From positions 1 to 64,000 of the forward strand of contig JAIPBD010000023.1 in assembly GCA_021739765.1 (NCBI GenBank): 64,000 nucleotides of DNA, in the 5' to 3' direction. Within the stretch, counting starts at the first letter, position 1. The number at the start of each line of letters is the position of its first letter. The stretch comes from Melioribacteraceae bacterium. Lineage in GTDB: Bacteria > Bacteroidota > Ignavibacteria > Ignavibacteriales > Melioribacteraceae. The translations under genes and the position numbers were made by a program. A model generated the notes under the pieces. The model had not been told where the DNA came from, ran no database searches, and saw only the letters and a program-made list of their open reading frames with translations. Below, in pieces: positions 1 to 31,735 of the stretch.

Positions 1-155
1 TAATATATCTATAATAGTCATTTATGGGATTACCTAACTTTCAGGGTGTTCTGTAATCAAATTTCACTTTGGATCCAATGTCTTTGCATAATAGTAACTT
101 TTATTTTCGTCTTTTGCCAATGTTTTTAAGTTTTCCAACATACATCTGTAAAGCT

Positions 156-629
156 TCAGACGGGAATGCTCTTGAAATCTTTCAGTGCATCTAAAATTTC
201 CAGCAGGTAGTAATTTTCATTGTTCACAGCTACATAGATTTTAATCGGTGTGACTTGTTTTGCACCAATTTTGGGGATTACCCGTTTTACTTTTCTGGTT
301 ACTTTCATGATTTTGGGCATGTGAATGATTAAGGCCATGCGATTGTATAATGATCCTTCGGTAGTGTATGCAATACGTTTAACATCTTGAAATGGGTATG
401 GTTTAAGCAGTTCTTCTTCTCTTGGTTTAAGCTCACCAATTTCAGATTGTTTTGGTTGATAGAATACTCTTGCCGTTGCCCTTTTGACAATCCCTTTTTA
501 GATTAAACACTCAATAGCTTTGGCGGCAGCATTGTATTCCGATTGGTCAATAGCGAGTCGCTGATACTTGAAGGTTGTTCCTTCCTTCATCCTATTGTTC
601 TTACGTTCTTTTTTCTCCTCTATCTTCAT
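156..629 (-). pseudogene. Broken DUF6088 (AbiEi-like) antitoxin gene
   Basis: Reading from the ATG at 629, one frame gives a protein starting MKIEEKKERKN with the block KPREEELLKPYPF and ending LDALKDFKSIPV, which I recognise as DUF6088, the type IV abortive-infection antitoxin family related to AbiEi. An in-frame TAA at 498-500 falls between CLI and KGIV, where the family normally has lysine, so a single A-to-T change explains it. The protein also stops at 156, well before the usual C-terminus, and no AbiEii nucleotidyltransferase toxin follows in 1-155. The frame is otherwise intact across 474 bases, so decay looks recent. Family assignment is from memory of the conserved blocks. Confidence 0.7.
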
Positions 630-763
630 TTACTGACGTTACCACTTAGTGAAAACAAAGAAAAGAAATTGTTGGGCTTTGTCTAGTATTTTTAGCAAAA
701 TAATTGACATGTTGGATTTGATTTCAGAAAAAAGCCAGAATATTAATGTGTCTTTAAATGTTT

Positions 764-890
764 GCCTAACAGTCTCGGTTTTAAGTAGTATCGTGGTTCA
801 GCACTAAACTCTGCAGGTGTACACCAAACTGAAAATCCGAAAGGATTTTCAAAAGTAGGTGAGAACAAGCAATTACTTTTAGCCTTGGGG
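764..890 (-). repeat. attC-like site (degenerate)
   Basis: On the minus strand this element follows the stop of the NTF2-like lipoprotein gene. It ends with GTTAGGC (764-770), the canonical integron core, and its outer arms, GGCTAAAAGTAAT and the complement of GGTTTTAAGTAGTATCG, can pair imperfectly. A small inner hairpin has GAAAATCC and GGATTTTC. The left half lacks a clean AAC box, so this is one of the weaker sites. Confidence 0.4.
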
Positions 891-896
891 CAGTTT

Positions 897-1826
897 TTAA
901 TTGTTGATTCCAAATTTCAGTTGTCGATTGTATTCTTCTGACGAGAAAGTCCCTTTTGAATCTTTAATCAGATTTTTTTCACTCATCGTCCAAAGCTCAA
1001 ATCCACTAACTTTCACTTTGTGGTTTTTCCCACTGGGGTCCGCGTCAGTTCCGGTTAAGGTCCAATGAAATTCTATTCCATTAGGTTTATGAACTAAACT
1101 GTCACAACTTACCTTCAGATCTGGAAATTTGGTCATAAAACTTTGTGCAACTTTGGAAATTGCGTTTCTTCCCAAAGCGGGTTCTCCATCGTTTATCTGT
1201 AAAACTCCGTCATCCTCAAAAAACATAGCAACAAACTCTGGTCGCTTACTACCCCAGACTTGTGCATAACCTTCTGCAAAAATGTTTATGTCAAATTTTA
1301 GTTTTTGTTTTGGTTGCTCATGAACTGACCAGGCAATACTAAACAGCTTCCATTCACCATTAGATTTTATTAGTGTGATATGATTAATTTCCCGTTTTCC
1401 CGGAACTCCAAACTGACTGATTACAGCATCGGCTTTAACCAATGCCATTCGATCTGTAACAATAATCTCGTAATCATCAACTATTTCTAAATATGGCTTG
1501 GATTGAGCGTTTTGATATATATCATAGATTTCTTCAACAGCCCACTGATTAGTCGTCCATAAACTATCATTAAAAGAGGTATTCCCGACAATTGCTCCTT
1601 CTAGAATCAACTCTTTCATTGCATTCACATTTTTGTTGCCCGCAGCAAAAAGAAGCTTTTCCACGAAATCCACTATTTCTTTATGGTCTTCGTTTAGCTC
1701 TGAACTTATTTTTTCTGATGCTGTTTGTTCAATTATTTTTGGTTTATTCGCATTGAATTGACAACCGAAAATCAGAAAAGAAAAGGTCAAAATCGAAATA
1801 ATGTTGTTACCGGGAATATTTGTCAT
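897..1826 (-). CDS. Lipoprotein with two NTF2/SnoaL-like domains
   Basis: The 309-residue protein has an N-terminal hydrophobic segment ending in a lipobox (LIFGC, cysteine near residue 22), so it should be a lipoprotein. Two successive domains resemble the NTF2-like/DUF4440 fold: residues about 45-170, with INHITLIKSNGEWKLFSIAW as the typical last strands, and about 175-300, with VFAEGYAQVWG-like helix, RPEFVAMFFEDDGVLQ and HKVKVSGFELWTM. Such domains are steroid-isomerase-like pockets or simple binding modules; no substrate can be inferred. It sits as a single-gene unit between a half-site (1831-1853) and an attC-like element (764-890). The ATG at 1826 is only five bases from the half-site. 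Confidence 0.75.
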   Translation of the reverse strand: MTNIPGNNIISILTFSFLIFGCQFNANKPKIIEQTASEKISSELNEDHKEIVDFVEKLLFAAGNKNVNAMKELILEGAIVGNTSFNDSLWTTNQWAVEEIYDIYQNAQSKPYLEIVDDYEIIVTDRMALVKADAVISQFGVPGKREINHITLIKSNGEWKLFSIAWSVHEQPKQKLKFDINIFAEGYAQVWGSKRPEFVAMFFEDDGVLQINDGEPALGRNAISKVAQSFMTKFPDLKVSCDSLVHKPNGIEFHWTLTGTDADPSGKNHKVKVSGFELWTMSEKNLIKDSKGTFSSEEYNRQLKFGINN

Positions 1827-1830
1827 TTAC

Positions 1831-1853
1831 TGTTATACATTGTTGTGCAACGT
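1831..1853 (-). repeat. attC-like half-site
   Basis: The only sequence between the YdeI gene stop (1861) and the next start (1826) reads, on the minus strand, CGTTGCACAACAATGTATAAC. The ACAACAATG-TATA part matches the left end of whole sites elsewhere (for example at 19,783 and 17,920), but the second arm is missing. Confidence 0.45.
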
Positions 1854-1860
1854 TTTTTAT

Positions 1861-2505
1861 TCATTTTTTTTCCAATTGTTTATGCGAACCATCACAATTC
1901 GGTTTTCGTCTTGAAAGTCCGCAAACACAGTCATTCAGACCATAACCATCCATAATTTTTTGCATATTTTTTTCAATTGTAGATGTTATCGTTCTGGATT
2001 GTTTTGGTTTTGCAAAATGTAAAAGATAACCTCGCTGTCTTCCAGCGGTCAGATTTTTGAACGCTTTTTCAAAGTCGGGATTTTCTTTAAACTTCTGTTC
2101 TAATTCTTCAGGTATTTCGAAGTCAGTAGTTTTTTTCTTCTCAACTTTCTTTCCCGATTTTTCAATTCCGATTGCTTCTTGGATATAATTTTTTAGAGTT
2201 GCTTCGAGTTCCTCAATTTCATGTAATTCTGTAAATCTGATTTGTCTTGCCGATTGGACGTTTTCAGTCTGTTGGATTAAGAGATTTTCGGGGTCTTTCA
2301 GCAATGCGCCTTTGTGAAATAAAATTGCACAATAGTCTTTAAATTCATGGATTAGTACAATATTTTTTCCGTTGTCAGTGTAGCACGGATGCATCCATTT
2401 GAATTCTTCTTTAAGTCCAGATTCAAGAATGATTCCACGAAGTTTGGTCAATTCCGCTTTCCACTTTTCAAGTCCATTTATGTATTTATTAACGTCTTCG
2501 TTCAT
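1861..2505 (-). CDS. YdeI/DUF1801-family protein with C-terminal CDGSH motif
   Basis: Residues 1-110 match the YdeI/DUF1801 family (IVLIHEFKDYCAILFHKGAL, QTENVQSARQIRFT), followed by the usual helical part (TPEELEQKFKENPDFEKAF-like, LTAGRQRGYLLHFAKPKQS). The last about 20 residues read CVCGLSRRKPNCDGSH, an exact fit to the CDGSH iron-sulfur consensus C-x-C-x2-S-x3-P-x-C-D-G-S-H, which binds a 2Fe-2S cluster in mitoNEET-type proteins. The function of YdeI proteins is unclear. The frame extends to a GTG at 2535, but that codon lies in an attC-like element, so I take the ATG at 2505 (MNEDVNKY). Next to it are a half-site downstream and a short site upstream, making it a single-gene unit. Confidence 0.8.
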   Translation of the reverse strand: MNEDVNKYINGLEKWKAELTKLRGIILESGLKEEFKWMHPCYTDNGKNIVLIHEFKDYCAILFHKGALLKDPENLLIQQTENVQSARQIRFTELHEIEELEATLKNYIQEAIGIEKSGKKVEKKKTTDFEIPEELEQKFKENPDFEKAFKNLTAGRQRGYLLHFAKPKQSRTITSTIEKNMQKIMDGYGLNDCVCGLSRRKPNCDGSHKQLEKK

Positions 2506-2531
2506 TGTTTTTGGGGATTCTGCTACCTGCT

Positions 2532-2579
2532 GCACAAAGGTTAAAAAAACGCCTGTTTTAATGGTGTTTATTTTGTGCT
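2532..2579 (-). repeat. Short attC-like site overlapping the upstream stop codon
   Basis: On the minus strand a 48-base dyad begins GCACAAAATAAACACC and ends GGCGTTTTTTTAACC then TTTGTGC, with a short A-rich loop. It closely resembles the short site at 24,090-24,143 (CACAACAATAAATAAACGCC and GGCGTTTATT). The hydrolase stop codon (2568-2570) lies inside it. Confidence 0.6.
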
Positions 2580-3866: not shown

Positions 3867-3895
3867 ATATAATTCTATAAATGTTTGTGTTTGAT

Positions 3896-3911
3896 GCATT
3901 GTTAGCCGCAG
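3896..3911 (-). repeat. attC-like half-site
   Basis: On the minus strand GCGGCTAACAATGC follows the stop of a propeller-gene remnant by ten bases. It matches the left box and spacer of whole sites (CTAACAATG), but the hydrolase gene's leader follows at once and no GTT arm is seen. Confidence 0.45.
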
Positions 3912-3919
3912 TCATTTTA

Positions 3920-4183
3920 TTATTTATTTGCTGTCATTTCAGTTACTACTTTTCCGTCATATTTCCAAATTCCATTTGTGCCCCCAAACCAAATATTGTC
4001 TTCGAAATCACCTAAAATGAATAACAGATCAGAAAAAGTCTTACCGTTGTAAATAAATTTAGAAAATTTTTGACCATCAAAGACACATAAATTCCCAAAT
4101 TGTGCTCCAAGCCAAAGATTACCATTTCTATCTTCATAAATGGCTCTTATTCTCTTACTACAAAGACCATCTGCTTCGTTTTT
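3920..4183 (-). pseudogene. 3' remnant of a two-component-regulator propeller protein
   Basis: One minus-strand frame, open from about 4183 to a TAA at 3920-3922, reads IRAIYEDRNGNLWLG then DFEDNIWFGGTNGIWKYDGK, two blades of the Reg_prop type found in the sensor domain of hybrid two-component proteins. There is no start codon and only about 88 residues, so this is the C-terminal end of a much larger gene. Its own 3' end and a half-site are kept, while the 5' side runs into the attC-like site at 4253. Confidence 0.6.
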
Positions 4184-4252
4184 ATTCGATAATTATTCGA
4201 AAATAATGGTTCGATATGAACTTATATTATACGATAGCGGTTCGGTAAAATG

Positions 4253-4385
4253 CCCTATAACGATCAAGTGTAAGATCAGTATCGGATTTCAAAGCGATTA
4301 CCTGTCCGTCAACACCAAAGTTTATTAAATCACTACCCTTCGATTTCCACTTCACTCGTGATTACTCGTGTATAATGTTGTAGCC
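4253..4385 (-). repeat. attC-like site overlapping the HxlR gene end
   Basis: On the minus strand the element begins GGCTACAACATTATACACGA and ends CGTTATAGGGC, with imperfectly complementary arms. The last 12 or so codons of the HxlR gene lie within its left arm. Confidence 0.6.
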
Positions 4386-4801: not shown

Positions 4802-4901
4802 ATCTTAACAATCTGTTGAATATTACTTGCAAAATGAAAGTTATTTTTCTATTTTTACTTGCGAAACAAAAGTAATAAATTTTAATCAGAAAGGAAAGTC
4901 A

Positions 4902-5786
4902 ATGAAAAAAGTAATCTGTGTTATTATGTTATCAGGTATTCTCGCTTCCTCTAGCATAGCGCAAACAAAATCAACAAGCGAGCTAAATCAATCAAAGGTA
5001 TCAACAATGAATAAAAAAGAAACAGTAGGTGCTTTCTTAGGTGCCGTTTTAAAGAACGACGCAGCAACAATGCGGGAACTGGCTAATGATAATTACATCC
5101 AGCACAATCCATTTATTCCAACCGGATTAGAATCTTTCATCCAGATGCTTCCTATTTTACAAGAAAACGGTACAACCGCTGAAAACATTCGCATGTTCCA
5201 GGATGGCAATTATGTGTTTATGCACAACATTTGGAGAAATGCCAAGCCTTTTGGAGCAGATGAGATGGTGTCGTTTGATATTATCCGATTAGATGATAAC
5301 GGCAAAGTAGCCGAACATTGGGATGCCATGACCCCATTGGTAAAAGAAACTGCAAGCGGAAGGACGCAGACTGATGGTCCGGCAACCGCATCAGACTTGG
5401 AAAATACCGAAGCAAACAAAGCGTTAGCTAAGGCGATGGTAGAAGATATTCTGATGGGCAAAAACCCGAATAAGATTGCCGATTATATCAGTTCCGAACA
5501 ATATGACCAACATAATCCTGGTATAAAAGATGGATTGGCCGGTATTGTAGAAGCGGTTGAACTTCTCACTTCTCAAAACAACATGTTTAAGTACACTAAA
5601 ATCCACAAAGTATTGGGTGAAGGAAACTTTGTACTTACTGTAAGCGAGGGCGAATGGAATGGTAAAAAGCAAGTCTTTTATGATTTGCTTCGATTTGAAA
5701 ATGGAAAAGCTGTGGAACATTGGGACGTTATTCAGCCTATCCCAACCGAAGGGTTAGCAAATAATAATGGAATGTTTGGATTTTAA
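4902..5786 (+). CDS. Secreted double SnoaL-like protein
   Basis: The start chosen is the ATG at 4902 (MKKVICVIMLSGILASS), preceded by AAGGAAAG and followed by a signal peptide ending IAQ; an upstream in-frame start at 4827 would bury the signal. The 294-residue product has two SnoaL-like (NTF2 fold) domains, about 35-155 and 170-285, each with the NYIQHNPFIPTG or QYDQHNPGIKDG block and an AEHWD or VEHWDVIQP end. These resemble predicted SnoaL-like aldol-condensation or ester cyclase proteins. It is one of the few plus-strand genes in the array and lies divergent from hxlR and just before a broken SDR gene, so the three probably formed a regulated pair or trio. Confidence 0.8.
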   Translation: MKKVICVIMLSGILASSSIAQTKSTSELNQSKVSTMNKKETVGAFLGAVLKNDAATMRELANDNYIQHNPFIPTGLESFIQMLPILQENGTTAENIRMFQDGNYVFMHNIWRNAKPFGADEMVSFDIIRLDDNGKVAEHWDAMTPLVKETASGRTQTDGPATASDLENTEANKALAKAMVEDILMGKNPNKIADYISSEQYDQHNPGIKDGLAGIVEAVELLTSQNNMFKYTKIHKVLGEGNFVLTVSEGEWNGKKQVFYDLLRFENGKAVEHWDVIQPIPTEGLANNNGMFGF

Positions 5787-5821
5787 GTTTATAAAGAATT
5801 AATAACTATTAAAAAGGTCAA

Positions 5822-6276
5822 AAATTAAGAATATAATTATCACTTGAAGCAGCAAAGATTTTGCAGATAAGGGCTATCAAGTTTTTGCTACCATGCGTAA
5901 TGCAATTGGAAAAAATACAGCAGTAAAAACTGAATTAGAAGCATATTCTGCCCACATCAAAGTTGTGGATATGGATGTTACCAACGAAACTTCCGTAAAA
6001 GAGGCGATAGATTGCATCCTTGCAGAAACAGGGAAAATCGATATATAAATCAACAACGCAGGTATTATGTACCTTGGTATTACGGAAGCTTTTGGAATAG
6101 TACAGGCGCACCAGCAGATGGAAACCAACTATTATGGTGCTATTAGAACGATGCAAGCGGTTTTACCTTCAATGCGTAAATCTGGTACCGGGCTAATTAT
6201 CAACACATCTTCGCTGGTGGGCCGTATGTCACCGCCGTTTTTCGGAACCTATACGGCTACCAAACATGCTTTATGA
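5822..6276 (+). pseudogene. Broken short-chain dehydrogenase/reductase
   Basis: The plus-strand frame reads KNIIIT, a stop, then DKGYQVFATMRN, VVDMDVTNETSV, a stop just before INNAG, then NYYGAIRTMQAVLP and TYTATKHAL. These are the SDR cofactor, NNAG and YxxxK (YTATK) segments. The glycine-rich TGxxxGxG loop is missing or deleted, one TAA interrupts the NNAG strand (about 6046), and the gene ends at 6276 right after the active-site region, where a normal SDR has another 80-100 residues. The truncation point abuts a half-site on the opposite strand. An HxlR-SDR pairing is common in Bacteroidota. Confidence 0.75.
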
Positions 6277-6279
6277 CTC

Positions 6280-6293
6280 AATGTTATGTGCAG
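6280..6293 (-). repeat. attC-like half-site
   Basis: Minus strand reads CTGCACATAACATTGAGT a few bases after the stop of the serine hydrolase gene. The CATAACATTG block parallels CTAACAATG of other sites, but no second arm follows; instead the truncated SDR begins in opposite orientation. Confidence 0.4.
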
Positions 6294-6299
6294 TTTTTA

Positions 6300-7997
6300 C
6301 TATTTAACTTTTTCAAAGAAAATATCTTTTGCTCGGCTACTTGAAACTTTGAAACCGATAACTTTTCCTAAATTATTTCTATGAAAACTAATTTCTCGAA
6401 ACGAACCTTTACTTCCAATAAAATAGTCTTTCATTACAGCCGTTAAGTTAAAATTACCCAGTCTTTGGTGATTTGCATATAGAATGTTTTCTTCAATATT
6501 AAAAGTATAATATGCATTCAATTCGGGACTAAAATAATTTCCGGTAAATTCTTCTAAAGAATTCATGGTATAATTTGCAGGAATGTATTTGTCAAATACA
6601 ATAACATATCCATCATCCAAGGTTACGTTCATCTGATTAGAAATAAAGGAGACTGAAGTGTATTCATCTGTTTGCATTTCAAATTCATTTTCTCCAACGG
6701 GAATAAGTGCAGTATTATCGTTGTTAGCTCGCATATAATACAACGTATCGTCTAATATCGCAATTTGTCTTGAATAATTATCATTGTAGTTCCAATAATA
6801 TCCTTCAAAAGATGCCAGTTCCTTCGTGTTTTTTTCAATCGGCTTTTTATGTGAAAGAATCGTTTTGGAATTAGAGATACTTTGTTCTTGTGAAAAGTAT
6901 TCTTGTAAACAAATGTCTGTCAATTGTCTTACTATTTTAGCACCATTTATATCTGAACGATTAATAGTTACTATAATGCTGATGTCTTGCTCAGGAAATC
7001 TGCCTAAATATGCTTGATAGCTAGCGTCCATACCGCTATGCTCAATTCTCGGTAAACCTTTATAAGTATTTACAAATTGACCAAGTGCATAACCAAATGA
7101 ATCACCATTATTTAACTTTCCTAAAGTGTTCATTTTTTGAAAGATATCTTCATTTCCAGTTGTTTCCTTTGTAAAGTTAATTGCCCACTTACTCAAATCT
7201 TCAATAGTTGTGGATAGATTTGTTGCTCCAACACTTGTGTTATTAAAAATATCTTCTAAATATTGGTCATCTCTTTTGTAATAAGAATTTGCCTTATTAT
7301 TTATTACGACACCTTCTTTATCAACAAATTGAGTATTGTTCATTCCTAAAGGAATAAAGATGTTTTGCTTCATATATTCAGCAAAGGATTTCTCAGAGAC
7401 TCGAGCTACTATTTCAGCTAAAAGGGTATAACCGGAATTGCAATACATATATTCTTCATTAGGCATAAAATTTAGCGATTGTTGTTTGTATATAAGGTCA
7501 AGTACTTGATTATTACTAATTATATCATCTAATCGCCATCCGGCAAGCCTCAGAAGATTCCATTGATCCTTTATTCCACTTGTATGATTTAGAAGGTTTC
7601 TGATTGTGATATTGTTACCAAATTCATTCATTTCAGGAATGTACTTTCTGATATTATGATCTAATGAAAGTTTCTCTTCTGCTTCCATTAACAAAATTGC
7701 AAAAGCTGTAAATTGTTTCGAAACTGAAGCTACATGAAAAGAAGTTTTGTCAGTTATAGGAATTTGATGTTCTAGATTTGCAAGTCCATATTCTTTTTGT
7801 ATTGCTAATTCATTTTGATGTACAATTCCTATAGCTATACCGGGTTTATTCAAATTATAATCTTTAAATAGACTGTCAATTTCCCCGACTATTCGGGATA
7901 AATTAAATTCATTTTCTTCACTATCCTGAGATCGAAGATTAGTTGTAAATATTAGCAAGCAAGTACATGCTATTAAGAGTTTGTTGAGATAATTCAT
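6300..7997 (-). CDS. Serine hydrolase, beta-lactamase/PBP class C family
   Basis: I start at the ATG at 7997 (MNYLNKLLIACTCLL), preceded by AAAGGAAAA; an ATG at 8018 is also in frame. After a signal peptide the protein shows the class C motifs: SVSK (S-x-x-K nucleophile, about residue 95), YCNSGY (Y-x-N, about 190) and HSGMD (the H/K-x-G motif, about 330). A C-terminal domain of some 180 residues (FEGYYWNY, FTGNYFSPELNAYYTF) resembles the lipocalin-like tails of Bacteroidota beta-lactamase-related proteins. It probably acts in the periplasm as an esterase or D-amino-acid peptidase rather than a true beta-lactamase. It is a single-gene unit. Confidence 0.85.
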   Translation of the reverse strand: MNYLNKLLIACTCLLIFTTNLRSQDSEENEFNLSRIVGEIDSLFKDYNLNKPGIAIGIVHQNELAIQKEYGLANLEHQIPITDKTSFHVASVSKQFTAFAILLMEAEEKLSLDHNIRKYIPEMNEFGNNITIRNLLNHTSGIKDQWNLLRLAGWRLDDIISNNQVLDLIYKQQSLNFMPNEEYMYCNSGYTLLAEIVARVSEKSFAEYMKQNIFIPLGMNNTQFVDKEGVVINNKANSYYKRDDQYLEDIFNNTSVGATNLSTTIEDLSKWAINFTKETTGNEDIFQKMNTLGKLNNGDSFGYALGQFVNTYKGLPRIEHSGMDASYQAYLGRFPEQDISIIVTINRSDINGAKIVRQLTDICLQEYFSQEQSISNSKTILSHKKPIEKNTKELASFEGYYWNYNDNYSRQIAILDDTLYYMRANNDNTALIPVGENEFEMQTDEYTSVSFISNQMNVTLDDGYVIVFDKYIPANYTMNSLEEFTGNYFSPELNAYYTFNIEENILYANHQRLGNFNLTAVMKDYFIGSKGSFREISFHRNNLGKVIGFKVSSSRAKDIFFEKVK

Positions 7998-8062: not shown

Positions 8063-8190
8063 GCACATAAAACCGTCTCGGCTAAAAGTGGTACGGGATT
8101 TCATGTCACGCCACTACCGCCTACCGTAAAGTTTATTTGATGTAATCGCTTTCATATCAGCGCTTTACCCCGCATTATGTATCGCCAAGG
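8063..8190 (-). repeat. attC-like site
   Basis: On the minus strand the element starts CCTTGGCGATACATAATGCGG and ends CGAGACGGTTTTATGTGC; ACATAA-GCGG and CCG-TTATGT can pair. Its interior contains GTGACATGAAATCCC, similar to GTTTGACATGAAACC in the site at 15,364-15,497. Confidence 0.5.
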
Positions 8191-8203
8191 TTACCAATCG
8201 TAT

Positions 8204-9376: not shown

Positions 9377-9397
9377 TCTGTTGATTCCTATTTTATT

Positions 9398-9573
9398 GGC
9401 AACATTGTATTTATGAGTAGTAGCGGAGTTTAAAGCGGTTTTGTTTCAAGTTACCAAATAGCCAAAGCTTCACTTTATCTAAACAGTCAAATCGGCAGAT
9501 TTGGCAGAATTGATTAAAACTACTAAGGCCCAAATACCCACAGAAACCGGTATTACTTACACAAATTTGCCGG
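9398..9573 (-). repeat. attC-like site (long)
   Basis: Arms on the plus strand, GGCAACATTGTATTTATG (9398-) and the complement of CAAATTTGCCGG (to 9573), pair with bulges over about 28 bases; GAGTAGTAGCGG opposes CCGGTATTACTTAC. This places the ..AAC/GTT.. boxes at the ends, with a long interior of about 120 bases. Confidence 0.6.
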
Positions 9574-9602
9574 TAGTAATTATTTATTTATTGCGCTTAA
9601 TG

Positions 9603-10571: not shown

Positions 10572-10703
10572 GTTGTCAACATTTTGGCTATGGCTCGTTG
10601 CGGAAAATCGGCTAAGATTTTCCACCTCAACCGAAAGATAGCAAATTGCAATGAATTACGTTGAAGGAATTCAGCCGCAATCAGATATACACGTTGTTAC
10701 CGG
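10572..10703 (-). repeat. attC-like site
   Basis: Minus strand begins CCGGTAACAACGTG and ends AAAATGTTGAC. Arms GTATATCTGATTGCGG and CCGCAACGAGCCATAGCC pair imperfectly. It separates the broken NmrA-like gene from the gene remnant at 10720. Confidence 0.5.
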
Positions 10704-10719
10704 TAGTTTTTTATTTTCG

Positions 10720-12153: not shown

Positions 12154-12155
12154 TT

Positions 12156-12289
12156 CTATAACGTGGTCTGGTGTATGAGCAGTAGAGGATTTATATTCAC
12201 AACTTTTCGGAAAACAAGATACTTAATTAAATGCAAAAACGGCTTGGATTAGCACCCAAACCGCACCTGCCCGTCTCGCCGTGTTAGCT
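12156..12289 (-). repeat. attC-like site
   Basis: Minus strand begins GCTAACACGGCGAGACGGGC and ends CTGCTCATACACCAGACCACG followed by TTATAG. The GGCGAGACGGGCAG and CTGCTCATACACCAGACC arms pair with bulges; boxes are CTAAC and GTTATAG. It sits seven bases after the second SDR gene. Confidence 0.65.
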
Positions 12290-12296
12290 AACGTTT

Positions 12297-15363: not shown

Positions 15364-15497
15364 GACCCTGACGGTAAATAGTATGAGTAGTTGCAGAGTG
15401 CGTGGTGGTTTCATGTCAAACCGCTTTGCCGTTTGCGTTGGATGCGATCCTTGATATACAGCTTTATCACTGCCATTACTTATACAAAATGTGGGGC
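15364..15497 (-). repeat. attC-like site
   Basis: Minus strand begins GCCCCACATTTTGTATAAGT and ends GCAACTACTCATACTATTTA then CCGTCAGGG. The arms TTTTGTATAAGTAATGGCAG and CTGCAACTACTCATACTATT pair over about 20 bases with bulges, the usual attC layout. Confidence 0.65.
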
Positions 15498-15502
15498 TTT
15501 CG

Positions 15503-17764
15503 TTATTTATTGTTCCATACAGGAATGTTAAAGCAACTTGATGTATGAATATTTAATTCTAATGGAACATTGGCATCATATATTGACTCTTCGCTAACCT
15601 CTTCTCCGGTACCATAATTAATTTGACCGTAACTATTTTTATTGCCATTAATAACGATGACAATCTTACTTCCCTTGGACATTTTTTTACTAACGATTCT
15701 TGTGTTGTCAAAAACTAACTTAATCAAGTTGTTAGGAGTTAATAATGCTCGTTTTTCTCTGTTAGCAGCATAACTTGCCCTGCCTATATAATAACTAAGA
15801 TGGAAGTATTTTTCCTCAGGAGTTAGTTCATAAAGATTGACTCCAAAATCAAAATCTTTTTTATTGGAGATGATATTTAACTCACCCGAAAAAGAGCCAT
15901 TTATAATCGTCTCCTTTTGCAAGGGTTCACTTATAAATACCAAGCCATCTTTCAGATTGATGCTATCCTTAACAATCGGCCAAGGATAATAATCGGAATT
16001 GTTCATATTTGACCTATCCGCAAAGTCAATACTAAGGTTAAGTGGGCTTTCATTTTTAGGCTTATCGCTAACCAAATTGTGGCTAAGACCAGCTCTACTT
16101 TCGTTTAAGAAATAAACAAGTGAGCTATTACTCATTTCTTCAAACGAGCCTTTATTTATCCATTTATTTGCCCCCATTATCTGGAAATTCACTTTATCTT
16201 GAAGGATGTCTGGCTTTTCTTTTCCCTTTAAAATGTAATCAAACCAATCAAAAACTAAATCATGTTGAATGTTAATACCGGCAACTGAGTCAATCTGGTA
16301 TCCTCTTAAAAAAGGGGAAGACCTGAACTGCGCGCCCCAGTGGTCATAAGGTCCAACAAGCAAAAAGTGGTTTGCATCAGGATTATATTTTAAATGCTCG
16401 TTATAATAATACATGGCTCCCCGCTGTGAATCGTCATAATACCCCGTTATGGTAAGTATTGGAATATCAATATGAGTGAACTCATCTTTATACGGAATCA
16501 TACTTTGCCAATACAAATCGTAGGAAGGATGCTTAATCCATTCCTTAAAGAGGTCATTATTAGAACCACTTAGACTGTCCATTTTGTTGTATTGTACGCC
16601 GGATTTAAACCAATCAGATTGTAGATTACTCCATCGATCTCTGTCAAAATAAGTTTTACTGTCTAAGAATTTATTATTGGCTACATACCAGTACCAACTG
16701 TAAGAAAAGTTAAGAAAAACATTATTTTCCATTGGAACATCTATTCCCGGAGCAATGGCAACTGAAGGCACAATTGTTTTTAAAGCCGGGTGAACTTTTT
16801 CTTTCATGGATGCCCATTGCGTGAAACCTCCATAACTACCGCCATACATTCCGACCTTGCCGTCACTCCAAGCTTGTTTGCTAATCCAGTCAATTACCGC
16901 GTATACATCTGAATGCTCATGTGTGTAAGGCTCAATTTTGCTTTTGCTCGACCGTTTGCCTCGTGATGTAGCGAAAACACCAACATATCCTTTCGATGCT
17001 GCCAAAATTGCATCCTGAAGGTTTGAGGGATCAGCATAAATTGTGAAATACAGAACAGCAGACATCGGAACTGCTTCTTTTTTACGCACAACAATAGCCG
17101 AAATCTCAGCACCATCTTTAGTGGTAATTAAAACGTTCTCATCTATCAGATATCTTTTGTTTTCATCCTCCTTTATCTTTTCAAAAACAATAGGTTCCGT
17201 AACGTTATAAACGTAGTATAGAAAATAATCTTTCAATAAAGCCAAAGCTTGCTCAAACGAAATGTTGCCTGCATCAAGTTTTTCATAATTGGTATTAAAG
17301 CGGTTTGTAAACTGTGCTACGCCATCATACGTAGTGAAACTCAGGTTTATCGAATAGGCTTGCTCATCGGAACAGGTTTGTAAATAATCTAAAAATACCG
17401 AAGAATAAGCTTCTATAAACGAGCTGCCAGAATCGAGTTGTTTGATTTTTGCTTTTGCATAGGTTTCGTATTGGATGAATTGGGGTAGGTTTTGCTCTGT
17501 TGTTAGCCCTTTCCTTAGAGATTGAATGGTTTTGATAGAAGCTGGATATTTTTCGGCAAGCATTTCTATTCTGAAAAGATCATTTCCATCTACCGTGTTT
17601 TCAGATTCCTCACTTTTCAGTAAAAAGTCTTTTGCCAAACTTCGCATGTTTTCAGCAAGGTCTATAGTGTCTGTTAACGAGACCTTCTGAAACTGTAAAT
17701 TCTGCGCCCTCAATGATTGACTAGCAAGTATCGATATAAGTAAAATAAAAGTTGTTTTTTTCAA
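15503..17764 (-). CDS. CocE/NonD-family secreted hydrolase (X-Pro dipeptidyl-peptidase S15 type)
   Basis: The 753-residue protein starts with a signal peptide (MKKTTFILLISILASQSLRAQ), has a helical N-terminal region of about 200 residues, then the S15/CocE catalytic domain: NVLITTKDGAEISAIVVRK, VFATSRGKRSS, the Asp-Val-Tyr-Ala-Val-Ile-Asp-Trp helix, nucleophile GGSYGGFTQWA near residue 308, acid loop TGYYDDSQRG and histidine in GPYDHWG. A C-terminal jelly-roll (about 550-750; FSGELNIISN, YIGRASY) is typical of the family. It likely cleaves acyl or X-Pro peptide bonds in the periplasm. Single-gene unit between attC-like sites. Confidence 0.85.
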   Translation of the reverse strand: MKKTTFILLISILASQSLRAQNLQFQKVSLTDTIDLAENMRSLAKDFLLKSEESENTVDGNDLFRIEMLAEKYPASIKTIQSLRKGLTTEQNLPQFIQYETYAKAKIKQLDSGSSFIEAYSSVFLDYLQTCSDEQAYSINLSFTTYDGVAQFTNRFNTNYEKLDAGNISFEQALALLKDYFLYYVYNVTEPIVFEKIKEDENKRYLIDENVLITTKDGAEISAIVVRKKEAVPMSAVLYFTIYADPSNLQDAILAASKGYVGVFATSRGKRSSKSKIEPYTHEHSDVYAVIDWISKQAWSDGKVGMYGGSYGGFTQWASMKEKVHPALKTIVPSVAIAPGIDVPMENNVFLNFSYSWYWYVANNKFLDSKTYFDRDRWSNLQSDWFKSGVQYNKMDSLSGSNNDLFKEWIKHPSYDLYWQSMIPYKDEFTHIDIPILTITGYYDDSQRGAMYYYNEHLKYNPDANHFLLVGPYDHWGAQFRSSPFLRGYQIDSVAGINIQHDLVFDWFDYILKGKEKPDILQDKVNFQIMGANKWINKGSFEEMSNSSLVYFLNESRAGLSHNLVSDKPKNESPLNLSIDFADRSNMNNSDYYPWPIVKDSINLKDGLVFISEPLQKETIINGSFSGELNIISNKKDFDFGVNLYELTPEEKYFHLSYYIGRASYAANREKRALLTPNNLIKLVFDNTRIVSKKMSKGSKIVIVINGNKNSYGQINYGTGEEVSEESIYDANVPLELNIHTSSCFNIPVWNNK

Positions 17765-17790
17765 TTTATTGGTCTTTGATTTTTAATGAT

Positions 17791-17920
17791 GCTTAACATT
17801 TAGTAAATGCAAAGTAGGCGATTGTGGGCTAAAAACCTATCAAACAGTTACGATTTTGAAGCGGGCTGCAACCCATGAATTTACTACTATCTCGGCTATT
17901 TTGTATATACATTGTTAGTC
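17791..17920 (-). repeat. attC-like site (type A, twin of 28,002-28,132)
   Basis: Minus strand begins GACTAACAATGTATATACAA and ends CATTTACTAAATGTTAAGC. Arms AAAATAGCCGA and TCGCCTACTTTGC pair. Bases 17,808-17,874 match 28,020-28,086 at 61 of 67 positions by my count. Confidence 0.8.
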
Positions 17921-17938
17921 TTTCGTTTTTTTATGTAA

Positions 17939-18745: not shown

Positions 18746-18770
18746 TGGCTAGATCTTGTTTATTAATGAA

Positions 18771-18904
18771 GGCTAACGGTTTGAATATGGTGCGTTTGGC
18801 ATTACAACACTCCAAACTTTCAGGTTACTACAATATTTCTTAATTGCCATCATCTTCATTTTTAGCACTATCTGCCAAATGCACCATATTTTTTGTTGTA
18901 GGGC
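18771..18904 (-). repeat. attC-like site (best stem)
   Basis: Minus strand begins GCCCTACAACAAAAAATATG and ends CCATATTCAAACCGTTAGCC. The inner arms AATATGGTGCATTTGGCA and TGCCAAACGCACCATATT match at 17 of 18 positions, and the ends are CTACAAC and GTTAGCC. This is the clearest attC-like fold in the window. Confidence 0.85.
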
Positions 18905-18927: not shown

Positions 18928-19629
18928 TTATTGTCGAAATTGAATAACAAAAAATAGAAATTGTATTCCGTCATAAAGAGCGTGAGATATGATTAACGGC
19001 AACAATCTGCGATACTTATAAAAATAAAAACTTATTATTACACTTTTAAGTCCTATGGAAATTATTCCAGCAGTTCCTTGGTATAAATGTGCTACTCCGA
19101 TTAGTGTAGAAGCCAAAAATATTACAGCAATTTGCCAATTTTTATTTTCGTTTACATTCCACAAGCATTTTAGTAAAAACACTCTTGATAATTCTTCAAA
19201 AAGTGCAATACCAATCCACAAAACAGGTCCAAACCAAACAAGCATTAACAAAGGGTTGTTTGACAAATCAACCATTGTATTAATCAATTCGGTATTAGGC
19301 GGATTATGATTAGGTATCCATTGATAAAGAGTTACTCTTTCTATAAAGAACATTGCGAAATATATAGCAGTCAATCCTATACCAATCAAGATGTCCCAAT
19401 ACCAAATCCCTTTACCTGAATTAAATGTTTCTTTAAATGTATCTTTTATCAAGTATTTATTGAGATACATAATCAAAAGACTTATTCCACCACCAAAAAC
19501 CAAAGGATAGACAGTCATATCAGTTGTCGAAAAATTTTCTGTTTGTGTCAGTCTATACCAAATCATTATGATATTGATTGGTAAAATTGCAATGCTGATT
19601 GCTAAAATATTTCGTAATATTTTATTCAT
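18928..19629 (-). CDS. CPBP-family intramembrane metalloprotease-like protein
   Basis: The 233-residue protein has six or more membrane helices and the three CPBP (CAAX protease/bacteriocin-processing) motifs in the right order: FEELSRVFLLK (paired glutamates, about residue 146), GVAHLYQG (histidine, about 183) and ISHALYDGIQ (H-x-x-x-D, about 219). Motif 1 is normally EExxxR and here the Arg is one place earlier (EELSR), so activity is not certain. CPBP proteins cleave in the membrane; roles include bacteriocin self-immunity. Single-gene unit. Confidence 0.8.
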   Translation of the reverse strand: MNKILRNILAISIAILPINIIMIWYRLTQTENFSTTDMTVYPLVFGGGISLLIMYLNKYLIKDTFKETFNSGKGIWYWDILIGIGLTAIYFAMFFIERVTLYQWIPNHNPPNTELINTMVDLSNNPLLMLVWFGPVLWIGIALFEELSRVFLLKCLWNVNENKNWQIAVIFLASTLIGVAHLYQGTAGIISIGLKSVIISFYFYKYRRLLPLIISHALYDGIQFLFFVIQFRQ

Positions 19630-19649: not shown

Positions 19650-19783
19650 GCCCTACAACGGTGAGTATAAGAATAGTAGCCGATTGCGTGACACTTTCCT
19701 GTCAAATTACACAAAAGTTGGAGCGGGCTACAACCATTGATTTTACTCCAGAACCGGCTATAATTTTTATGCATTGTTGTAAG
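19650..19783 (-). repeat. attC-like site
   Basis: Minus strand begins CTTACAACAATGCATAAAAA and ends CTTATACTCACCGTTGTAG. Arms TATAAAAATTATAGCCG-like and CGGCTACTATTCTTATA pair well. The interior GGTTGTAGCCCGCT is shared with the sites at 17,791 and 28,002. Confidence 0.8.
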
Positions 19784-19789
19784 TAGTTT

Positions 19790-20752
19790 TTACTGCAATT
19801 TTGTCAACCATCTTATTGAGTTTAAAAATAAATCTGCATTATCACAATCGGGATCATGAATAGTTACAGGAATTTTCTCACCGTCAATAAGCAAATCTAA
19901 GCTTCTGAATATTCCTTGATCTGTACAAACTATAACTCTACCCGCTCCGAAATTAAACCCAATCATTCCAGCATAAGAATCGGAAGATTCTTCGATATCT
20001 ATGCTTCCATCATGAGTAGGAGTGAAATTAATTGTATTCTTTGGAAAGGGCAGAATATTGTCTTCCGGATTTCTAAAAATAGCTGCTCCGCATAAAAACT
20101 TTATCGTGTCTGGCAGGATGTCATTTGAAAGTCTGGAAGCTATAACAGGGTGGTTAATATTAATCATTCCGTTTTTTGAAGTCATTAAAAAGTGACTGCA
20201 TAACCCACAATTATGCCCCGGGAAATTTGGATGATATGCATAACCATCTCTGAATTTTATACTAAATGCTTCTAAAAGTGGTAAAGCACCACTACCTCCC
20301 GGGAAATGACTTAAAAACAAAAAGAGACTTCCCCCCTCATACACATATTTGGTAATGTCAATAACCTCTGCATCACTCAAAGGTGATTTATACATCACCT
20401 CTTTTTTTTCACCGCTTTCCAATATGATTTTATCATTCGGCATACCATGCAAAACAAGCATGTCTGGCTTGGTTTCTTTAAGATTTATTGAATCCAGTGT
20501 GTTGTGGGTAAAAAGGACATTAAAACCATCTTCACGCATAATTCTTAACATTTCACGTGCTGTCTCCTTTCCATAGGAGAGTGAATAGATAGTATTATGT
20601 GCTTGGTCTATTAGAATCTTTTTATGGTGGGTATCTTTGAGCGATTTAAATTGATATTGAAAAATTGTATCAAATTCTGCTTCGACAGTTCCTTGTCCAA
20701 AGGATATATTTCCGATCATTATCAATATGACGATTCCAAGATTTATTTTCAT
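19790..20752 (-). CDS. Secreted glutamine-amidotransferase-fold (ThuA/DUF4350-like) protein
   Basis: I start at the ATG at 20752 (MKINLGIVILIMIGNISFGQ, a signal peptide), preceded by AAAGGTAAACATC; the longer frame to 20788 overlaps the upstream gene. The 320-residue protein begins with KKILIDQAHNTIYSL, then GKETAREMLRIMREDGFNV and DMLVLHG, YVYEGGSLFLFLSHFPG, and ends AGRVIVCTDQGIFRS and NADLFLNSIRWL. This pattern fits class-I glutamine-amidotransferase-like domains of the ThuA/DUF4350 group that lack a clear catalytic triad. Last gene of the TetR-headed operon, 17 bases after DUF2568. Function unknown. Confidence 0.65.
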   Translation of the reverse strand: MKINLGIVILIMIGNISFGQGTVEAEFDTIFQYQFKSLKDTHHKKILIDQAHNTIYSLSYGKETAREMLRIMREDGFNVLFTHNTLDSINLKETKPDMLVLHGMPNDKIILESGEKKEVMYKSPLSDAEVIDITKYVYEGGSLFLFLSHFPGGSGALPLLEAFSIKFRDGYAYHPNFPGHNCGLCSHFLMTSKNGMININHPVIASRLSNDILPDTIKFLCGAAIFRNPEDNILPFPKNTINFTPTHDGSIDIEESSDSYAGMIGFNFGAGRVIVCTDQGIFRSLDLLIDGEKIPVTIHDPDCDNADLFLNSIRWLTKLQ

Positions 20753-21676: not shown

Positions 21677-21679
21677 TTT

Positions 21680-23712: not shown

Positions 23713-24089
23713 TGTAAATATACGAATAAAAATCTATTCTGCAAGAGAAGTTATTTATTTGGGATGATTTTTAGGAATACGTTGATTGATAATCATTAAG
23801 CACATAAAATAAATATTCATAAAAGAAGTATTTAATAATATTAAAAAAGAAAAGTGTTAATCTTTAAACGGGATGCAGGCAAGCCGAAAACAACTCTTTT
23901 GCAAAGCTTGGGTTGAGGGTTGGTTTATGCGACTTTGCAAATGTGCCAAATGAACATTGCAGAAAAAATTAAAAATGCGGGAGGGGTAAAAATTTAAACT
24001 TGAGTCGGATTAAGTGGCTGGAATTTCAATCCGTCAAAGAGCTCTTTCCATTGTCTGCTTTTTTCGCAGCACGGTCGTTTTTCAGGCTT
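23713..24089 (-). other. Non-coding/remnant stretch between two cassette units
   Basis: No intact gene. It holds a long hairpin-type repeat (23,868-23,960) and, at 23,994-24,090, a frame reading KPEKRPCCEKSRQWKELFDG and LKFQPLNPTQV with a stop but no clear start. The short frame sits exactly where a cassette gene would be, between an attC-like site and the hairpin repeat. I cannot name it. Confidence 0.4.
23868..23960 (-). repeat. Hairpin-type attC-like element
   Basis: The arms CTCTTTTGCAAAG (23,894-23,906) and CTTTGCAAATGTG (23,933-23,945) pair around a 26-base loop. On the minus strand TTTGGCACATTTGCAAAG opens the element and CTTGCCTGCATCCCG follows it. The terminal boxes are not clear, so its membership in the attC-like family is tentative. 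Confidence 0.4.
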
Positions 24090-24143
24090 GCCAACGTACT
24101 GAATAAACGCCGGTTTTAAGGGCGTTTATTTATTGTTGTGAGC
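24090..24143 (-). repeat. Short attC-like site
   Basis: Minus strand: GCTCACAACAATAAATAAACG through CC, loop CTTAAAACC, then GGCGTTTATT and CAGTACGTTGGC. A near-perfect 10-base stem with CACAAC and GTTGGC ends. Same design as 2,532-2,579. Confidence 0.75.
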
Positions 24144-24267
24144 TGTTATATTCCTTAATAATTTTCATTTATTCACTAAATCACTTTTGTTTCCGTAAAG
24201 GAACCAAAAACTCAGATTCCATACATAGCATAGTTTATTTTTATTCGTAAGATTGGATTTTTATGAA

Positions 24268-24882: not shown

Positions 24883-24971
24883 ATTTAAACCTTTTTTAAA
24901 TTATTACTGTAATCGTTTTATCGTCTTTATATACCGCTCGGTATTGTAGCTGGTATTCTATTTTTTACCGC

Positions 24972-25223: not shown

Positions 25224-25259
25224 GCCAAGTATCGTAAATCCTGATTTGTCAGACTAAGT

Positions 25260-25910: not shown

Positions 25911-26127
25911 GATAATACTACTCCGTTTTTTTGAAAATTCCGATTTCTACAAAGCACCTCCCGTTATTTTTATTTCATTTAGTAAAGAGGAAAGAAATCA
26001 TCATCCGATGATTATTTACTCTGCTTTATCGAATTGATGATGCAAAGATGGAGTAGAAAGGAAGGTTTATCGTCCTGAAATGTAATTGCGGACTTCATAG
26101 TGAGATTTGGGACTTTTTTAAAAAGGC

Positions 26128-27933: not shown

Positions 27934-28001
27934 TTTCTATTATACTTTTTCGGGGTTTCTTCGAACTGACATTGAATTTTCAATGATTAGGCTTTTGTTT
28001 G

Positions 28002-28132
28002 GTTACAACGTTTAATATATGCAAAATAGGCGATTGCGGGCTTAAAACCTATCAAACCGTTACAATTTTGAAGCGGGCTACAACCCTTGAACAATCATCT
28101 ATCCTGGAATTTTTTATACCGCGTGTTATACA
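28002..28132 (-). repeat. attC-like site (type A, twin of 17,791-17,920)
   Basis: Minus strand begins TGTATAACACGCGGTATAAA and ends TTTTGCATATATTAAACGTT then GTAAC. Interior shares 61 of 67 bases with 17,808-17,874. Confidence 0.75.
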
Positions 28133-28136
28133 CAGA

Positions 28137-29696: not shown

Positions 29697-29716
29697 TTTG
29701 GTTGCTTTTTAATTTG

Positions 29717-29736
29717 TGTATACATTGTTAGGGCAT
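29717..29736 (-). repeat. attC-like half-site
   Basis: Minus strand GCCCTAACAATGTATACAC, 10-28 bases after the PIN-toxin gene stop. It has the strongest match to the integron left box (GCCCTAAC) but no right arm before the GH28 gene. Confidence 0.5.
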
Positions 29737-29744
29737 CGTGCTTT

Positions 29745-30245
29745 CTAGAATGTTTCTCCTATTTGTCTAAACATTTCTATAGTATTTATATACTTAATGC
29801 CAAATTCATTACACGGTTCGGGTATCTTAATTCTATTCTTTCTATTTAGGTCACTTACTTCCTGTGTCACAATTGTAATGTTATCTTTTTCTGATAAAGC
29901 ATAAGCAACAATAAATGCATCGGCTTCGTCAGCATCAAGAAATTCAGTTAAAGCTTTTGGGAGATAATGGTCAGACTTTGAAATAGCCCATTCTGTGATT
30001 TGCGAATATTCTTGCATTTTTAGTGATGAGTCTTTGAAGAAATTATCAGGCAAATTAATTTTACACCAATTTTCTAATTCGTCATTTTTGTCAAAAAGCT
30101 CATTTTTAACTTTGTCAATGCTAAAAATAGTTCCAGAATCTGCTAACATCTTGATTTTATTCCAAAATCCGGTTGCAATATCGAGCGGATATAAAGCTCT
30201 ATGAGCTTGAATGAAAAAATTGCTATCCACTAAATACGTTTGCAT
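29745..30245 (-). CDS. DUF4411 PIN-domain toxin-like protein
   Basis: 166 residues with PIN-domain acidic positions: TYLVDSNFFIQAHR (Asp, residue 7), KVKNELFDKNDELENW (Glu, about 49) and DADEADAFIVAYAL (Asp cluster, about 115-122). The family is DUF4411, PIN-like RNases typically paired with an upstream ImmA/XRE protein. Start codon overlaps the upstream stop by one base (30245), so the two are coupled. Predicted to cleave RNA and be held in check by its partner. PIN toxin systems are a known way of stabilising integron arrays. Confidence 0.8.
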   Translation of the reverse strand: MQTYLVDSNFFIQAHRALYPLDIATGFWNKIKMLADSGTIFSIDKVKNELFDKNDELENWCKINLPDNFFKDSSLKMQEYSQITEWAISKSDHYLPKALTEFLDADEADAFIVAYALSEKDNITIVTQEVSDLNRKNRIKIPEPCNEFGIKYINTIEMFRQIGETF

Positions 30246-31378
30246 TATTTATTCAGGTGTTTATTGAAAAAATTGTCAAATGTATCTCCTTTCATGCTAG
30301 TAAGTTTATAAGCATCCCTATAAAGAAGGTCGCCAGACTTTACCGCACGTTCTATATGATGTGCAAAAGTTACACTTAATCTTTTCTTTGCTGTGGCATA
30401 GAAATCTCCACCAGAACCTTGAGATTTTTTCTTTTCAAATTCTCTATTCCCATATTCCTCATAAAACTTAAAGAACTCTGCTTTTGTAATTTTTCCTAAA
30501 TCTAAAGCCCTGCGAGCAATTACAATTTCGCTAACTTTAAAATGTCTGGAATATTTACTTAATTCAGAAATTCCTTGCCATATTTCGTCTAGAGCAATCC
30601 TTGGAACTAAAAATTCAGCAGCAATTTGGTCACAAAGTCTCTCAATAGGGTCATCTGCTGGTTGAAGTTTTCTAAAATCGAATCCTGCACTGTGTCCAGT
30701 CCAAATATGAGCCAATTCATGGACAATTGTAAACATTTGCGCAGATTTGCTATCAGCGTTATTTACAAACATAAATGGAGCATAATCGTCAACAAGTACA
30801 AATCCTCTACATTCTTCAACGTCAATCGGACGACTAGTGTTATTTTCGACAATCCCATTAAATACGGTTATAATCCCATTATCCTCTATTATTTCAACTA
30901 GATGATTTAAAGAGTCTTCCCATGTTCTGAAGCTACTAGCCCAATTCTTTTCTAAACCTAAGACATTTCTTATATCACGAACAATCTTTTCAACTTCATT
31001 GATTTTATTAAACGCTCCAACGAATGTCAGTTTATCAAATTCGTTATCTTTTAAATATTCTCTCAACCAGTCTTGGCGCTGAACCATAAACTGAATCGTA
31101 TCATATACATTGACACTTATTTTTTCAGCCCGATTTCCATTACTTCGGAAATAGGGAATCGGTATTTTTTCAATTGGAGGTTTTTGTAAAAACAGATATC
31201 CAAAAGGAAGATGAACTTTCTTAGAGAAAGCTTCAAGTTGCTTAATTGTCGGTTTTTTTGTCCCATCAATCCAGTCAACAATTTTAGGTAATTTGGTAGA
31301 AAATTCATGCAAATCATATCCTGCTCGGGAAATAGCCCAAGTAAGCATATCTGCATTTATATTTACCTCTGTTCTCAT
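30245..31378 (-). CDS. XRE-ImmA metallopeptidase (antitoxin partner of the PIN protein)
   Basis: 377 residues. Residues 1-60 carry an XRE-like helix-turn-helix (LPKIVDWIDGTKKPTIKQLEAF), then an ImmA/IrrE-type domain with the zinc motif MFTIVHELAHIWTGH (H-E-x-x-H, about residue 218) and the third ligand region CDQIAAEFLVP. Such proteins act as antitoxins that are degraded or cleave a repressor, or regulate transcription of the pair. It is the first gene of the array on the minus strand, coupled to the PIN gene. Upstream at 31,385-31,396 TAGATTTG matches the -7 box of Bacteroidota promoters. Confidence 0.85.
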   Translation of the reverse strand: MRTEVNINADMLTWAISRAGYDLHEFSTKLPKIVDWIDGTKKPTIKQLEAFSKKVHLPFGYLFLQKPPIEKIPIPYFRSNGNRAEKISVNVYDTIQFMVQRQDWLREYLKDNEFDKLTFVGAFNKINEVEKIVRDIRNVLGLEKNWASSFRTWEDSLNHLVEIIEDNGIITVFNGIVENNTSRPIDVEECRGFVLVDDYAPFMFVNNADSKSAQMFTIVHELAHIWTGHSAGFDFRKLQPADDPIERLCDQIAAEFLVPRIALDEIWQGISELSKYSRHFKVSEIVIARRALDLGKITKAEFFKFYEEYGNREFEKKKSQGSGGDFYATAKKRLSVTFAHHIERAVKSGDLLYRDAYKLTSMKGDTFDNFFNKHLNK

Positions 31379-31735
31379 TTTACAAATCTACAAATTAAAA
31401 GTCTTGTTCTAAAATTAGTTGTTAAGTTTTTGATGTTTTGCAAGTCTCTCCTGGTATGTGCCACAAAGTTCTTAAGAGGCGAATTGCGTTTATCACTTAA
31501 ATTATCAAATAATGTATGAAAAAACAAGAAATTCAAGATTAGAGGCCAGATAAGTATTCCAACCAATTTCTATTATTTCGTCTACTTTCATTATCTCGTA
31601 AACTAATTATTTCGAATACAGTTTTAAGTAAAAAAGAATAAGCATCGATTTCTCCTACCCAATTTCCCCCTTCCGAATTCGCTTATCAATCTATAAATTG
31701 CACATTGTTACTCTCAAACTTGATATGATAATTCA
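31379..31735. other. Boundary stretch between array and chromosomal genes
   Basis: No convincing gene in 357 bases. Minus-strand frames of 63 and 28 residues (NSPLKNFVAHTRRDLQNIK; MKVDEIIEIGWNTYLASNLE) could be parts of one decayed gene, but I recognise neither. GAGTAACAATGTGCAATTTA (minus strand, near 31,700) resembles the left box of the attC-like sites. An integron integrase or attI would be expected here, given the orientation of the genes, but none is seen. Confidence 0.4.

Follow-up and report, generated by a model that had tools for sequence, protein, structure and literature searches.

An old integron-type cassette array in a Melioribacteraceae genome, and the patch-less integrase that heads the arrays of its relatives

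The stretch of DNA analysed here, called the window throughout, comprises bases 1-64,000 of contig C27 (JAIPBD010000023.1, 65,625 bases) in the genome of a Melioribacteraceae bacterium (GCA_021739765.1), a 4.54 Mb assembly in 37 contigs that is 99.8% complete. The left 31.4 kb of the window is probably an old array of gene cassettes from an integron-type system working with a patch-less integrase, that is, an enzyme related to the integron integrase IntI that is devoid of the IntI-specific additional domain and is missing from this genome. In its present state the window is an ageing, partly decayed array of the type known as clusters of attC sites lacking integron integrases (CALIN), with 11 attC-like sites and no integrase found in contig or genome; we consider it as ageing because the genome shows neither IntI nor its patch-less relative, which we label IntI-lite. 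In other organisms, arrays with the same family of sites have an IntI-lite gene as their usual neighbour. For this site family the accompanying integrase is in most cases the patch-less relative, not canonical IntI, and a search for intI leaves it unreported. The integron variant behind the array is apparently undescribed: a search of the literature by title and abstract, with subscription papers and preprints outside it, returned no description of a patch-less integron integrase or of these arrays.

The attC-like sites of the window

An initial annotation of the window, made from its letters, had drawn attention to five attC-like elements. These elements are real: a covariance model (R2) finds all five, together with six more. 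The 11 sites, one of them marginal, are spread from 4.2 to 28.1 kb in a single orientation, all 11 having their folding strand on the plus strand, opposite to the genes, while no R2 match better than E 5 is present between 31.4 and 64 kb. We agree with the earlier expectation of the array head at about 31.4 kb. The first covariance model (R1) had as its input three elements of the window and one from an IMG/VR viral contig (L016); R2 was derived from an alignment (A7) of 83 R1 matches with E up to 0.0002. This alignment includes the window sites starting at 17,790, 19,652, 28,002 and 15,365, which match R2 by construction, and the other seven of the 11 are absent from it.

Listed from the head, the sites, all in minus orientation with respect to the genes, begin with the five that had been annotated, three of which are in the training set: 28,002-28,133 (88.2 bits, in training), a short site of 57 bp at 24,088-24,144 (21.9 bits, E 0.0085, not in training), 19,652-19,785 (129.2 bits, in training), 18,770-18,904 (64.6 bits, not in training) and 17,790-17,922 (119.6 bits, in training). 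Then come 15,365-15,499, scoring 72.1 bits with R2, in whose training it stands, and 40.9 bits with R1, outside whose training it stands; a marginal site at 12,155-12,291 (18.4 bits, E 0.055); 10,573-10,704 (27.0 bits, E 0.00057); 9,396-9,574 (30.2 bits, E 0.00011); 8,066-8,198 (39.4 bits); and 4,254-4,385 (58.1 bits), which overlaps the end of an HxlR regulator gene. Nine of the 11 start at most 35 bp from a minus-strand stop codon; random placing gives a mean of 0.75 and never reached nine in 10,000 trials.

A site family with a preferred folding strand

The covariance models reveal the same site family in Ignavibacteria and in cultured Flavobacteriia, and R1 sites (E 0.001) are present in 55 of the 295 genomes of the class Ignavibacteria, including the one under study. 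On the strand opposite to the genes, a site opens with TAACG, a 4-nt spacer and an arm of 15 + 1 + 2 bases; a terminal loop of some 72 nt, parts of which are conserved, leads to the second arm, and a 2-nt spacer and TGTTA close the site. The AAC/GTT box pairs are kept in 79, 77 and 78 of the 83 aligned sites, so that the bounding of a site by R'' (ending in AAC) and R' (beginning with GTT) is present. The long stem is variable and covaries, with both-side changes at 16 of 17 pairs and 93% of cells paired, and a further stem position (columns 41/185) is C-G in 35 of the 83 sites and G-C in 31. Over the whole structure 92.7% of cells pair, versus 70.7% after shuffling and 36-55% after sliding, and double changes number 370 versus 118 in the control; these figures lean towards the model, because the site alignment was fitted to it.

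The two strands are not equivalent. Two G.T pairs occur in 75 and 78 of the 83 sites and a third in 53, always in the same direction; the whole stem contains 255 G.T versus 35 C.A cells. More G.T pairs are on the folding strand in 79 sites (three are even and one has fewer), and folding energies computed with DNA parameters favour this strand in 66 sites and the other in 17 (p 5.6e-8). No conserved extrahelical base was found in the L arm, the insert columns of the long stem being lettered in at most four of the 83 sites of the model-fitted alignment; in single folds of some sites other bulges appear. Two canonical-type sites beside a canonical intI gene from the same class (L160:15309-15368 and 16512-16571) have two extra bases in one arm. 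They came from our own dyad scanner, which is too weak for long sites and symmetrical, hence giving the same matches on both strands; these two are the only matches that we used from it.

A scan of viral contigs for the exact pattern gave nine stretches with one true site, the other eight being chance-like matches by eye, and a protein scan of viral contigs gave no match. The true site (L016:2525-2658, on an IMG/VR contig of 43 kb) is the most typical of all. It lies between a 176-amino-acid open reading frame and a 483-amino-acid gene which we take, from its look, to encode TIR plus TPR domains. The four 96-nt sites at L176:12929-14809, of which three are spaced by 233 bases, resemble mini-cassettes with hardly room for a gene.

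The circle signature of cassettes

A cassette that was once a circle, opened at G|TT, should have a 5' end that pairs with the R'' box of the next site and not with the flank beyond it. Accordingly, the 8 nt before the AAC of each site were compared with the 8 nt after the GTT of the previous site and of the site itself. The sample, a part of all sites found, comprised 168 sites in 43 loci and 125 consecutive pairs, counted by hand; scores were given to the 109 pairs that had both motifs within 18 nt, while the remaining 16, three of them from the window, were set aside. Among the 73 pairs separated by under 1,500 bp, complementarity of at least 6 of 8 was seen in 56 with the previous site versus one with the own site, the mean scores being 6.04 and 2.73 of 8. 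For all 109 pairs the counts were 66 versus 2, and shuffled partners gave a mean of 2.44, with a maximum of 2.98 in 1,000 shuffles. In the window, the cassette of the CAAX protease begins with GTTGTAGGGC, complementary at 7 of 8 positions to its end, GCCCTACAAC. The idea that the sites are fixed intergenic palindromes, REP- or terminator-like and foreign to gene exchange, is scarcely credible: they are indeed palindromic and sit behind stop codons, but the circle signature (56/73 versus 1/73) contradicts it, as do the single orientation in each locus, the integrase at the head and the change of cassettes beside a conserved platform.

An integrase without the additional domain

The usual neighbour of the relatives' arrays, IntI-lite, is an IntI-related tyrosine recombinase whose core measures about 275 residues. 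The IntI-specific additional domain is absent from all 110 IntI-lite rows of our alignment and present in all 20 rows of canonical IntI, which had been selected with the integron-integrase model. The KDR and HxLRH motifs are 53-58 residues apart in 110/110 of the former versus 95 in 20/20 of the latter. The 110 rows include likely duplicates (at least L117/L246 and L217/L222). IntI-lite is 35% identical to a canonical IntI of the class (161 bits), with most of the 44 gap positions at IntI's own domain, and 29% identical to a Xer-like protein of the genome under study (92 bits); its best match in the PDB is IntI4 (2A3V). One member (L077) scores 217 bits with the NCBIfam integron-integrase model (cut-off 265) and 218.8 bits with the XerA-type model NF040815 (cut-off 220).

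Matches to IntI-lite at E 1e-45 occur in 77 of the 295 genomes. We counted 68 of these as having IntI-lite, nine with best E values of 1e-46 to 1e-48 being excluded by a line drawn after the list was seen. The loci called named ones here are, from a scan of named records, the best 80 of 146 relatives: 73 carry names of Bacteroidota in the wide sense, and the other seven to Acinetobacter (three), a Paceibacterota bin, a Desulfobulbaceae bin, Acetivibrio and a Treponema bin. The Acinetobacter records (L217, L222, L214) hold a relative of 235 residues, among them the chromosome of A. portensis JNE5 and a plasmid named as a carrier of NDM-1; in the stretches read around this gene there was no site of the array site family.

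A quick tree of 72 sequences (20 canonical, 50 of the 110 IntI-lite and two Xer-like) groups IntI-lite and canonical IntI apart from the two Xer-like proteins, which are those of the genome under study (support 100). Canonical IntI makes one clade (100), adjoining four IntI-lite sequences (95) and nested within IntI-lite, and a single clade for all IntI-lite is compatible with the data (p-AU 0.49). Passages of PMC8138268 present the additional domain as essential for integron function. Smyshlyaev et al. also describe the insertion as 'not fully conserved' in an integron-like subgroup, and those passages do not link such proteins to arrays (PMC8138268).

An attI-like dyad and the turnover of cassettes

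In Maribacter, the integrase gene is followed by a dyad whose arms differ among species yet stay complementary, then by CAATTGTT. By eye, a dyad with GTT is present behind the integrase in 12 of 13 loci of the Flavobacteriia type, weakly in L229, and it is absent in L263. Over 10.86 kb, Maribacter huludaoensis M208 (L223) shares 97.5% identity with Maribacter MAG-157 (L226), and their similarity ends 12 nt past this GTT; L226 has only some 220 bases beyond the break. In two further comparisons (L237 with L255, L223 with L254) similarity is lost at the same place behind the dyad. In L248:12168-17155 a block of two cassettes is present as tandem copies 2,437 bases apart, identical at 2,543 of 2,550 bases, with right edges that diverge directly after CCGTT.

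The integrase at the head of the arrays

In every one of the 48 loci scored (18 from the class and 30 named ones, with 132 sites), IntI-lite stands on the head side; L216 and L246 were left out as they lie on the same contigs as class loci. Other loci, unscored, also have it on the head side: L252 and L274 (sites at E 0.02), G121 (28 kb apart) and L070 (truncated integrase). In each locus the sites are on one strand, apart from weak echoes of the same sites on the second strand; the integrase is divergent from the cassettes in some loci and points toward them in others. At the level of genomes, R1 sites are associated with IntI-lite (24/55 against 44/240, p 1.5e-4) and not significantly with canonical intI (14/55 against 39/240, p 0.12), kinship being uncorrected in both comparisons.

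In the genome of the window no such enzyme was found. Contig C27 has no match to two recombinase models, a Pfam scan of 30 window proteins shows no recombinase among them, and no attI-like dyad was seen by eye at the right (head) end of the array, in keeping with the annotated lack of intI, attI and tyrosine recombinase. Searches of the whole genome with IntI and IntI-lite models found neither, and there is no TIGR02249 match over the cut-off (the best has 81 bits, versus 265), which fits the CALIN-type reading already proposed. The best matches to IntI-lite in the genome, none of them on C27, are two proteins that we presume to be XerD-like (138 bits) and XerC-like (108 bits), then a broken recombinase on contig C4 (97 bits) and weaker ones. 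Two more recombinase matches share 3.5 kb of contig C4 (C4:299724-303194); one of them has two stop codons, and they may be the remnant of a mobile element. An integrase beyond the left edge of the window, as had been suggested, is not favoured, because the integrase is on the head side in all scored relatives and the head is here the right end, where none is seen; a gap left of the contig start would nevertheless leave some room for it.

Several observations weigh against the array being a cassette array of a system driven by IntI-lite, in addition to the model-fitted alignment mentioned above. Since the genome is without both integrases, the link to IntI-lite is made through relatives only. 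The scored loci are not independent, several being close relatives, and a hand-scored contig (G203:C53) has IntI-lite 9.6 kb off on the wrong side, with a canonical intI on the head side, making the count 48 of 49; a canonical intI is likewise on the head side of a site in G073:C116, and G164 has a second IntI-lite inside an array. While a site at E 0.01 is found in 32 of the 80 named loci, it is missing from the other 48, of which 28 have less than 1.5 kb behind the integrase and 20 have more. In the window itself, a clear circle signature is seen in one of seven scored pairs, the other six scoring 5, 5, 4, 3, 2 and 2, low values which imply that the array is for the most part old or that intervening sites have gone. 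Against the array as such, a SnoaL-like gene (4,827-5,786) is on the plus strand, contrary to the array, the sites at 10,573 and 24,088 are away from any gene end, and Rfam at gathering thresholds gives no match.

Some of these facts could be turned in favour of an ordinary CALIN, with attC sites once moved by a canonical IntI now lost and with IntI-lite as a mere frequent neighbour. A canonical intI that passes the curated cut-off is frequent in the class (53 of 295 genomes), two contigs with a site have it on the head side (the G203:C53 and G073:C116 just cited), and canonical integrons have been reported from Ignavibacteriae in passages of PMC9024848. We nevertheless hold this explanation to be unlikely. 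When the surroundings of 14 canonical intI genes were read with R2, 11 had no site at E 0.1, two had one site each (L152 and L154) and one a weak site of 30 bits (L165), a control that is weak because the gene is some 300 bases or less from a contig end in four of the 11 (L158, L161, L162, L164). The genome-level association with canonical intI is, as said, not significant, and the two extra bases of the canonical-type L160 sites are absent from the site family of the window. Much less probable still is that the sites were moved by the cell's own XerC/XerD, as happens with some mobile elements exploiting Xer. Xer-like recombinases are present in this genome, where no integron integrase was found, but XerC/XerD are universal, whereas it is IntI-lite that heads the relatives' arrays. 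Xer acts through dif-like sites, and this would leave folded sites with a G.T bias unexplained.

A proposed mechanism and its place among known systems

Under the reading that we prefer, an integron-type system with IntI-lite, the relatives' system would comprise IntI-lite, a putative attI-like site beside its gene, as seen in Flavobacteriia, and an array of units, each a gene plus its site, that share one orientation. The units would move as circles, opened and closed at the G|TT of the R' box. The substrate is probably single-stranded: the strand opposite to the genes would fold into an R stem of 5 bp, an asymmetric spacer and a longer stem with 17-18 bp, and the conserved G.T pairs would make it fold better than its complement. 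These pairs presumably choose the strand and may in this respect replace the extrahelical bases of canonical attC. IntI-lite, presumably the recombining enzyme of the arrays, would then exchange one strand with attI. We lean, if only by a little, towards a broader view, in which Bacteroidota possess a second, abundant kind of integron built on a patch-less integrase, with strand choice by G.T pairs, not by extrahelical bases, and in which canonical IntI may derive from such an enzyme by gain of a domain; this last proposal comes from the tree, where canonical IntI is one clade among IntI-lite lineages.

The likeness to sedentary chromosomal integrons (IntI, attI, attC) is extensive: gene-plus-site units in one orientation, AAC and GTT boxes, a folding strand opposite to the genes, a boundary at G|TT, an integrase at the head and, putatively, an attI-like site. 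By contrast, IntI-lite has no additional domain, said to be essential in passages of PMC8138268, and the array sites have no conserved extrahelical L-arm base, strand asymmetry coming with conserved G.T pairs. The window itself, with its 11 sites, no integrase in the contig and none found in the genome, is like any CALIN; however, the same arrays in relatives do have an integrase, one that would be missed by searches that require the IntI-specific domain (as described in parts of PMC9668308). The integrase of Maribacter and others points toward the array, an atypical orientation described for Treponema integrons in passages of PMC3607928, whereas it is divergent in other IntI-lite loci; the likeness is one of orientation. 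Recombinases of the XerA/XerC/XerD type are similar in length to IntI-lite, and the XerA-type score lies just below its cut-off, but IntI-lite groups with canonical IntI and heads cassette arrays.

Surveys pick integron integrases by the additional domain (passages in PMC9668308 and PMC2426708). As a consequence, patch-less platforms would be booked as integrase-less or overlooked. Should IntI-lite be active, cassette exchange at folded sites would need neither the supposedly essential domain nor extrahelical bases, and the enzyme would offer a handle on the evolution of IntI from Xer-like enzymes, as well as pointing to an extensive reservoir of mobile genes in marine Flavobacteriia that are in culture.

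Cargo and surroundings of the window array

Between 897 and 31,378 we considered 28 open reading frames, 27 of them on the minus strand, and scanned the 28 array proteins with Pfam. The cargo includes SnoaL, S9 and X-Pro peptidases, a beta-lactamase fold, SDR, AraC, TetR, GNAT and GH28 proteins, and DUF4411 with an IrrE-type peptidase. The best-preserved cassette gene codes for a CAAX prenyl endopeptidase-like protein (18,928-19,629, minus strand, PF02517), its cassette starting at the GTT flank of the site at 19,652-19,785. Two probable half-sites, with the R'' side only, were seen by eye on the minus strand: 29,700-29,744, behind the DUF4411 gene, shares a repeat family (D8) with 17,897-17,931, and 1,833-1,868 shares another (D9) with 19,767-19,802. 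They would explain the multi-gene units of the array by the loss of sites in between. Adjoining the SnoaL-like gene, the region 5,780-6,300 has no long open reading frame and looks by eye like a decayed dehydrogenase coding sequence.

The array extends to the left end of contig C27. On its right it is bordered by a core chromosomal gene (31,736-32,998, plus strand) present in 55 of 58 genomes of the family, including the one under study. In 15 of 15 relatives read, some 18 kb upstream of the orthologue of this core gene are without array genes, save one SDR paralogue (L297). In 11 of the 15 a counterpart of the gene at C7:23913-25163, presumably ClpX, lies upstream of the core gene; here it is on another contig, C7, and synteny is on this account broken at the head of the array, an insertion between the two genes not being claimed. 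Contig C7 was considered as the missing tail of the array and rejected, since it holds this usual upstream neighbour but one weak site only. There is no end overlap among C27, C35, C1 and C18. Elsewhere in the genome, R2 finds six further sites at E 0.02 or better, at C35:48859, C1:424191, C6:56620, C6:55991, C18:101713 and C7:10426.

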